A stretch of 64,000 nt of DNA, taken from assembly GCF_026168555.1 (NCBI RefSeq), contig NZ_CP092471.1, forward strand, positions 1,002,501 through 1,066,500, given 5' to 3'. Origin of the DNA: Qipengyuania spongiae (GTDB lineage Bacteria > Pseudomonadota > Alphaproteobacteria > Sphingomonadales > Sphingomonadaceae). Below are positions 31,988 through 33,453 of this stretch, piece after piece; the stretch's first letter is position 1, and each line of letters begins with the position of its first letter. Under the pieces are notes generated by a model. That model was given only the letters and a program-made list of their open reading frames with translations. It did not search any database and was not told where the DNA came from. The position numbers and the translations under genes were made by a program.

Positions 31988-33453
31988 CAGGACACCGGCT
32001 CCAGCTTCGCGATCCCGCCCATATAGGGGGCGAGCGCTTCGGGCACGGCGACGCTGCCGTCCTCCTGCTGGTAATTCTCCATCACCGCGACCAGCGTGCG
32101 GCCGACAGCGAGGCCGGAACCGTTGAGGGTGTGGACGAAGGCGGTCTTCTTCCCTCCTTCCGGGCGGTAGCGCGCGTTCATCCGTCGCGCCTGAAAGTCG
32201 CCGGTGTTGGAGCAGGAACTGATCTCGCGGAACGCGCCCTGTCCGGGCAGCCAGACCTCGAGATCGAAGGTCTTGCGCGCGCCGAAACCCATGTCGCCGG
32301 TGCACAGCAGCATCCGGCGATAGGGCAGGTCGAGCGCTTCCAGAACACCCTCGGCGCAGCGGGTCATGCGCTCGTGCTCGGCCTCGCTGTCTTCCGGGCG
32401 GCAGATGCTGACCAGCTCGACCTTCTCGAACTGGTGCTGGCGGATGAAACCGCGCGTGTCGCGCCCGGCCGAGCCCGCTTCCGAGCGGAAGCAGAGCGTA
32501 TGCGCGGTAAGCCGGATCGGCTCGGCGAGGTCGCCGAGGATCGTGTCGGCGACCGAGGCGGTCAGCGGAACTTCCGACGTGGGGACGAGCCAGCGCCTCG
32601 CCTCTTTTTCTGAGGTCAGCGCCTGAACAGTAGCCTTTCTGACTGCATGGCGTAGCTCATCTGAAACCTGAATATTGCTCCCAACCAAATCTTGCTTTTT
32701 ACCGTCAGCTTCGACCGTCATATTAATTCGAAGGTTAGCAAAAAAACTGTCGGTAACTGCATCGAAGTCTTTTTCGGTGAAATTGACCTTGGTTTGGAAG
32801 CTGTCCTCGGCGAACTTCGGCAGCTTGTCGGTGCCGTACATCGCGCCGTCATTGACCAGCACCGGCGGATTGCATTCGGTGTAGCCGTTCTCGCGCGTCT
32901 GACGGTCGAGCATGAACTGGGCGAGCGCGCGGTGGAGCCGGGCGATGTCGCCGCGCAGGAAGGTGAAGCGCGCGCCCGACAGTGCCGCGCCGGTTTCGAA
33001 ATCCATGCCCAGCGCCGGGCCGATATCGGCGTGTTCCTTGGGCTCGAAAGCGAATTCGCGCTTCTCGCCCCATTGCGAAACTTCGACATTGCTCGCCTCG
33101 TCCTCGCCCTGCGGCACGTCGGCGGCGGGCAGGTTGGGAAGCCCGGCGAGCAGGGCGTCCAGTTCGGCCTCGACCGCCTTCGCCTTCTCTTCCATCGCGG
33201 GCATGGTCGTCTTGAGCTCGCCCACCTCGACCTTCAGCGCCTCGGCCCCGTCCCTGTCGCCTTTCGCCATCGCTTGGCCGATCGCCTTGCTGGCCTCGTT
33301 GCGGCGGCTCTGGGCCTGCTGGACCTGCGTCAACGCCTCGCGCCGACGGGCGTCGAGAGCGAGGATGCGGTCGGCGGCGGGCTCTCCCCCGCGGGCGCGC
33401 ATGGCGTCGTCGAAGGCTTGCGGGTTCGAACGGACGAAGGCGATATCGTGCAT
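31987..33453 (-). CDS. serS: Seryl-tRNA synthetase with a 64-residue insertion near the catalytic core
   Basis: This 488-residue class II synthetase is longer than the usual 420-430. The N-terminal coiled-coil tRNA arm covers about residues 25-105. Motif 1 lies in [13 protein letters not shown], motif 2 in [26 protein letters not shown] and motif 3 in [19 protein letters not shown]. The Ser/ATP site is otherwise intact. The usual bridge from KFAEDSFQT to [13 protein letters not shown] is replaced by residues 222-285, encoded by about 192 nt (32599-32790) of only about 44 percent GC by hand count against roughly 70 percent next to it. The reading frame stays open, so the product is probably functional. 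The gene forms an operon with surE. Confidence 0.93.
32599..32790 (-). other. AT-rich in-frame insertion within serS
   Basis: This block of about 64 codons interrupts SerRS between motif 1 and motif 2 and has base composition unlike its surroundings. Codons such as TTT, AAT, ATT and AAA are used, although they are rare in the neighbouring genes. Amino acids include segments [24 protein letters not shown] and [20 protein letters not shown]. They suggest a folded alpha/beta insert rather than a loop. I found no direct or inverted repeats at its ends. It is too short for an intein and has no splicing Cys/His motif. Origin is unknown. Confidence 0.7.

Follow-up and report, generated by a model that had tools for sequence, protein, structure and literature searches.

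The seryl-tRNA synthetase gene (serS) of Qipengyuania spongiae belongs to a set of related genes in which one fixed site holds a multi-allelic module that is present, absent or replaced. Enzymes that are otherwise almost identical differ completely in this module, which is maintained as protein and has related versions in different genera. These features are best explained by a varying antagonist that binds SerRS at this site, and we tentatively suggest that the hypervariable insert may be an exchangeable shield, protecting the enzyme from a protein attacker that diversifies. The attacker would be a phage protein or a bacterial toxin that docks on SerRS near the predicted active-site side, and the insert would block this docking. 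The hypervariability of the site is invisible from one sequence, and the original prediction, made from the 64-kb stretch of DNA analysed here (the window), missed it. The open-access literature, outside which lie preprints and most subscription papers, contained no SerRS attacker among the matches listed and no hypervariable SerRS insert in titles or abstract openings among the matches listed.

The window protein scores 497.5 bits against the NCBIfam serS model TIGR00414 (cut-off 301.65), which places it in the SerRS family, and both the N-terminal and the class II core domains were found; its 488 residues compare with 425–426 in empty-site relatives. The in-frame 64-residue block described in the original prediction proved exact to the base (Table 1), as did the hand count of its GC content (85/192 bases). 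It had also been taken for compositionally foreign material at a conserved place in the interval between motif 1 and motif 2, and the conserved flanks, together with a GC3 of 0.46 in the 68-codon loop against 0.88 in the remaining serS, bear this out. The 60 bases next to the insert were said to have about 70% GC; they have 70% on the low-coordinate side and 63% on the other side. The window has 66% GC overall, and the insert is the most AT-rich 192-base stretch in its 64 kb, every non-overlapping stretch of that length having a higher GC content. Since a sister genome (G001) reads SFRTTDDRWLVPT at the place where the window has SFQT-block-RRWLVPT, the insert replaces a short loop. On its C-side the insert leads into the serine-pocket TxE motif, in a hairpin.

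Table 1. Coordinates of serS, its insert and the predicted structural elements of the insert in the window
Feature	Position	Strand	Details
serS, seryl-tRNA synthetase	31987..33453	minus	488 aa
Insert N-side boundary	32791..32826	minus	residues 210–221, conserved among relatives
Insert	32599..32790	minus	residues 222–285, 64 codons, 44% GC, single genome copy
Predicted helix 1 of insert	32734..32775	minus	residues 227–240; AlphaFold2, pLDDT about 76–80
Predicted beta hairpin of insert, low confidence	32686..32721	minus	residues 245–256; AlphaFold2, pLDDT about 55
Predicted helix 2 of insert	32614..32661	minus	residues 265–280; AlphaFold2, pLDDT about 76–78
Insert C-side boundary	32566..32598	minus	residues 286–296

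Two outcomes had been named that would have undone this picture. The first, a sequencing or assembly artefact, is an unlikely source of the insert, because the genome has a completeness rating of 100% and two contigs, one of which is the whole 2.89-Mb chromosome, and comparable inserts lie between the same motifs elsewhere. The second, the same block in related SerRS, was not found: a search with the window's insert in 60 Qipengyuania genomes gave one match, in its own genome, and E values of 0.05 or worse in the other 59. Two known kinds of element, Rickettsia palindromic elements and inteins, are likewise in-frame coding inserts in essential genes. Inteins have about 130 residues or more and a His-Asn end followed by Cys, Ser or Thr; the 64-residue insert ends in KEA, followed by RRW, and with no splicing residues it is not an intein. 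Rickettsia palindromic elements occur in many genome copies and consist of palindromic DNA, and we rejected a repeat of this type, as the insert is a single copy and positions 32560–32830 contain neither direct nor inverted repeats with a length of at least 10 bases.

The best 120 protein-library relatives of the window SerRS, ranked by similarity to the insert-bearing query rather than sampled at random, carry the names Qipengyuania or Erythrobacter where the matches are close. Flanks at least 98% identical to those of Q. citrea P0020 were found in 78 of these 120 proteins, nine of which bear inserts; the nine comprise six types, with 10–32% identity between types, and the other proteins are empty. 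An insert is present in Q. citrea LAMA 915 (P0044) and missing from P0020, which is 99.3% identical to it outside the site; outside the site, identity reaches 99.5% between P0044 and the empty P0024, and 99.8% between the insert-bearing P0007 and the empty P0030. The window SerRS itself is 96.9% identical outside the site to P0002, whose insert is unrelated, and 96.2% identical to P0003, which has no insert. One 426-residue Qipengyuania-like SerRS (P0049) is filed under a eukaryote source, with the label Psemu1, which we take to stand for the diatom Pseudo-nitzschia; it is probably bacterial contamination. Toxin C-termini with their immunity genes and restriction specificity domains are familiar polymorphic cassettes, and the serS site shows the same arrangement of dissimilar alleles between near-identical flanks (six types plus the empty state, at 98% or more flank identity to P0020). 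The two kinds of system share conserved flanks, dissimilar low-GC modules, many alleles and apparent spread by recombination, but the serS module lies inside a core translation enzyme and has no linked partner known.

Within the genus, serS is full-length in 58 of the 60 Qipengyuania genomes searched and fragmentary in the other two (G006 and G057). A long loop of 45–68 residues occupies the site in 14 of the 58, the window included, and a short loop in the other 44, so that three quarters of the genes are without an insert; short loops were defined as at most 20 residues by our parse, with two genes judged from their sequence text, and in the genes whose text was examined they have six residues (for example RTTDDR or QTTDGR). 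An all-against-all BLASTP comparison of the 14 inserts linked two pairs at E<1e-5, and the others only at E>0.1. In the nearest of the other 59 genomes (G001) the serS flanks are 95% and 97% identical to those of the window and the site is empty. The original prediction had called the block recently acquired; with the closest genome empty, a recent gain or loss in this lineage stands, but the block itself need not be recent, since inserts exceed their genes in synonymous divergence (pS) in all nine pairs compared (see below). A quick flank tree was built from 56 genes, leaving out the empty L154 and L161 and the two fragments; support was good for 13 of its 53 inner branches. Explaining the 14 inserts on this tree takes 14 changes, compared with a shuffled-label mean of 12.6–12.7; the well-supported branches alone force 8. 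As the number of changes is not below the shuffled mean, insert presence turns over faster than the serS tree.

Such turnover sets the inserts apart from conserved signature indels, an example of which, 18 residues long, is described for GlnRS of Xanthomonadales (PMC3568101). Such signature indels resemble the serS inserts in being in frame, in conserved regions and in an essential synthetase, but they are common to all sequenced members of a clade, whereas the serS inserts vary in both sequence and presence between near-identical enzymes. With as many changes as inserts and mostly dissimilar sequences, the serS module is not a clade-defining indel.

Beyond the genus, we used two samples in which only inserts that merged with the query into one match were detected, so that the counts are lower bounds: a Sphingomonadaceae sample (397 genomes, 381 with a serS match) held at least 15 insert-bearing serS genes from 14 genera among its 371 matched non-genus genomes, leaving out G354, whose match begins at residue 274, and a phylum sample (397 genomes, of which 161 are of the window's class by table count and 393 have a serS match) held merged matches in at least 15 genomes, among them that of the window, as well as a split match in G505 (L197, 48 residues). 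All the insert-bearing genomes listed from the phylum sample are of the window's class. Ten of 80 loci on named genome contigs, ranked by similarity, have an insert at the same site: those of a Brevundimonas MAG (L037), Bosea (L040), two other Rhizobiales (L043 and L044), Devosia (L067), Luteimonas (L047), a Xanthomonas sp. (L048), another Lysobacterales MAG (L072) and two Sphingomonadales or Sphingomonadaceae MAGs (L079 and L091). Insert carriers are mostly Alphaproteobacteria, with some Lysobacterales. The strongest contrast in composition was seen in an alphaproteobacterial gene (L184, in G635), a 67% GC serS with a 34% GC insert. In E. coli no insert was seen; each of the 5,374 genomes with a match covers 80% or more of the site query, and the serS matches listed (40 of 5,375 records) are single full-length pieces, where an insert would give two joined pieces. 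The E. coli genome set also contained seven serS-matching places on plasmids, and a record filed as E. coli (P276M) whose serS is 84% identical and which is probably another species.

In total, 78 insert-bearing records were collected, representing 68 distinct sequences and 54 families (BLASTP E<1e-3), 45 of which are singletons; weak links (E 0.003–0.009) connect three further pairs, so that some families may be remote relatives. Loops of 21–23 residues (L071 and L074) were not scored as inserts, L154, L188, L189, L191–L194 and L196 have no insert and were excluded from the insert sets, and L076, L161 and L199 have loops that are short by their sequence text and fell outside the search pattern.

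The inserts share several properties despite their dissimilarity. All 52 inserts analysed as DNA are open in the serS frame, the other five frames holding 68–187 stops, and compared with the remaining serS sequence, GC content is lower in 48 of them and GC3 in 50. This foreign composition of most inserts, along with their sporadic presence and quick turnover, is what would be expected of a permissive site at which short AT-rich foreign coding fragments arrive, are tolerated and are lost again. We nevertheless regard neutral tolerance of this kind as unlikely, given that 66 of 68 inserts fall within 45–92 residues (the sole shorter ones have 33 and 39), that they have common end residues (R is last in 44 of the 68 distinct inserts and next to last in 47, and 45 have T at the third position from the conserved F) and that Cys is nearly absent (1 in 3,922 insert residues, versus about 1.4% in the remaining SerRS). 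Nonsynonymous divergence (pN) is also below pS among related inserts, and ThrRS is without such inserts: in the same genomes, 57 full-length thrS matches span 1,734–1,791 bp, a difference of at most 57 bp, which leaves no ThrRS insert of such size. The ProRS family, queried as a further control, matched in none of the 60 genomes.

We infer that alleles are swapped when their conserved flanks recombine homologously, that many alleles are older than their host species, and that balancing (frequency-dependent) selection maintains their variety. Inserts of the same family occur in different genera, namely in L006 and L007 with L115, in L010 and L014 with L124, and in L091 with L122 and P0007. In nine of nine homologous cross-genus pairs, some of which share members, insert pS (0.45–0.94) is higher than flank pS (0.37–0.65), with dS saturated in five of the nine, and pN is lower than pS for the inserts throughout. 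We read these values as suggesting that the alleles arose before their present hosts diverged and are constrained to a protein fold. Saturation and the uncertain alignment of weakly similar inserts are caveats, and instead of age the high insert pS could reflect faster mutation or a relaxed codon choice. Insert identity equals or exceeds flank identity in 4 of 22 pairs, the insert being less alike in the other 18; the clearest of the four, P0015 and P0019, have inserts 98% and flanks 91% identical, as expected after transfer. At the junctions, compared for 11 of the 14 genus inserts (for the other three, no empty relative reaches 85%), the 30 nt upstream are less alike than in empty-versus-empty controls (identity 0.845 versus 0.915, p=0.003), and the drop relative to the own gene is similar in significance (p=0.005), both values being uncorrected for eight tests. 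The remaining six tests were not significant, with no signal downstream, and the one-sided signal hints weakly at the import of short tracts.

AlphaFold2 models of two whole enzymes predict a helical module (Table 1 for the window's insert), with a helix starting at residue 227 in each of their two unrelated inserts. The module is predicted to lie near the active-site side, as judged from its motif position and from insertion II of human SerRS, which probably sits in the same hairpin as the bacterial insert site; both are in the catalytic domain. The original prediction suggested a link to seryl-adenylate antibiotics. From the site, which adjoins the serine-pocket motif, and from a patchy and apparently transferable distribution, it might be argued that inserts lower the binding of natural antibiotics of this kind (albomycin type), but it is not obvious how a small molecule would select for dozens of sequences so unlike one another and 45–92 residues long, and we consider drug resistance very unlikely. 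According to a review, insertion II (G254–N261) is located in the catalytic domain near the active site and has a negligible role in aminoacylation (PMC10817482). It is described as an 8-residue addition of higher eukaryotes, whereas the bacterial inserts have 33–92 residues, are hypervariable and are on or off between near-identical enzymes.

Insertions and extensions of eukaryotic SerRS are described as serving as adaptors (PMC10817482), and each bacterial insert could similarly dock SerRS to a strain-specific partner, such as a regulator, a tRNA-modifying enzyme or the membrane. This seems quite improbable to us, as six unrelated inserts in almost identical enzymes would each call for a different partner, and the DNA around the window serS contains no differing neighbour gene: the window genome (G000) and the empty G001 are collinear over 99% of about 12 kb. 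The lack of a partner gene beside the window serS also counts against a shield, as do the literature matches listed, which include no SerRS attacker, the insert-free majority of the genus and the lack of any sign of an insert in E. coli. The 11 other insert-bearing Qipengyuania neighbourhoods have stretches unlike the window, with 52–70% GC; those of 52% GC, in L172 (G049; about 3.7–5.0 kb from serS) and L171 (G003), are within 7 kb of an insert-bearing serS. From position 33550 onward, on one side of serS, the window and G001 have stretches unmatched in these 11 neighbourhoods (L163–L173), so the neighbourhood differs in the window/G001 clade independently of the insert.

A word-based search of 5.8 billion proteins gave no relative of the window's insert, which belongs to no family in Pfam (best E 0.14), PHROGs (best E 0.26) or NCBIfam (no match); the best match among PDB sequences (E 0.1) is a chance one, and Rfam gave none. 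In phages and plasmids, blastn returned only chance pieces of 22–34 bases, and nothing was obtained from tblastn of the window's insert in the same sets, from a scan of IMG/VR or from an exact 29-base insert probe in IMG/VR. The P0007 insert, searched in the protein library, matched only seven SerRS proteins, itself included.

SerRS genes are found in large Brevundimonas phages and in some viral contigs (phage collection and IMG/VR). The IMG/VR genes L202 and L204 have a short loop at the site, and a PHROG that matches SerRS, phrog_16140, is labelled as of unknown function. That phages of Brevundimonas have their own SerRS and a Brevundimonas MAG an insert-bearing one, that the insert lies in the catalytic domain and that its allele variety resembles a sensor for varied invaders would all be in keeping with a kill switch, in which the insert senses a phage protein and inactivates SerRS, which halts translation and makes the infected cell abort. 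However, no trigger is known and jumbo phages often have several synthetases for other reasons, which leaves a kill switch distinctly unlikely. A further phage lead came from a study in which gene g121 of Citromicrobium phage RXM is named SerRS (PMC8953757). It was dropped: tblastn with a SerRS whose site is empty gave 26 records at E up to 10, with no Citromicrobium, Erythrobacter or Lacusarx among them, and the first 50 kb of Lacusarx, a 130-kb relative of RXM, list no synthetase. The RXM record may be missing from the phage collection, or the annotation of g121 may come from a remote match.

In conclusion, essential translation enzymes are among the most conserved proteins and are used as phylogenetic markers and drug targets. 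That enzymes almost identical elsewhere have completely different versions of one module suggests that selection within the cell is strong and changes. An attacker, should one be responsible, could be hunted directly, as the alleles are short, defined and carried by a cultured, named species, Q. citrea, and the insert alleles would provide ready probes for SerRS inhibitors from phages or competitors. It is possible, if doubtful, that the SerRS of Alphaproteobacteria is a battlefield, with a multi-allelic, immune-type recombining shield on its active-site side that would be the first inside a core translation enzyme; this would imply that undiscovered, widespread SerRS-directed weapons of phages or bacteria exist.
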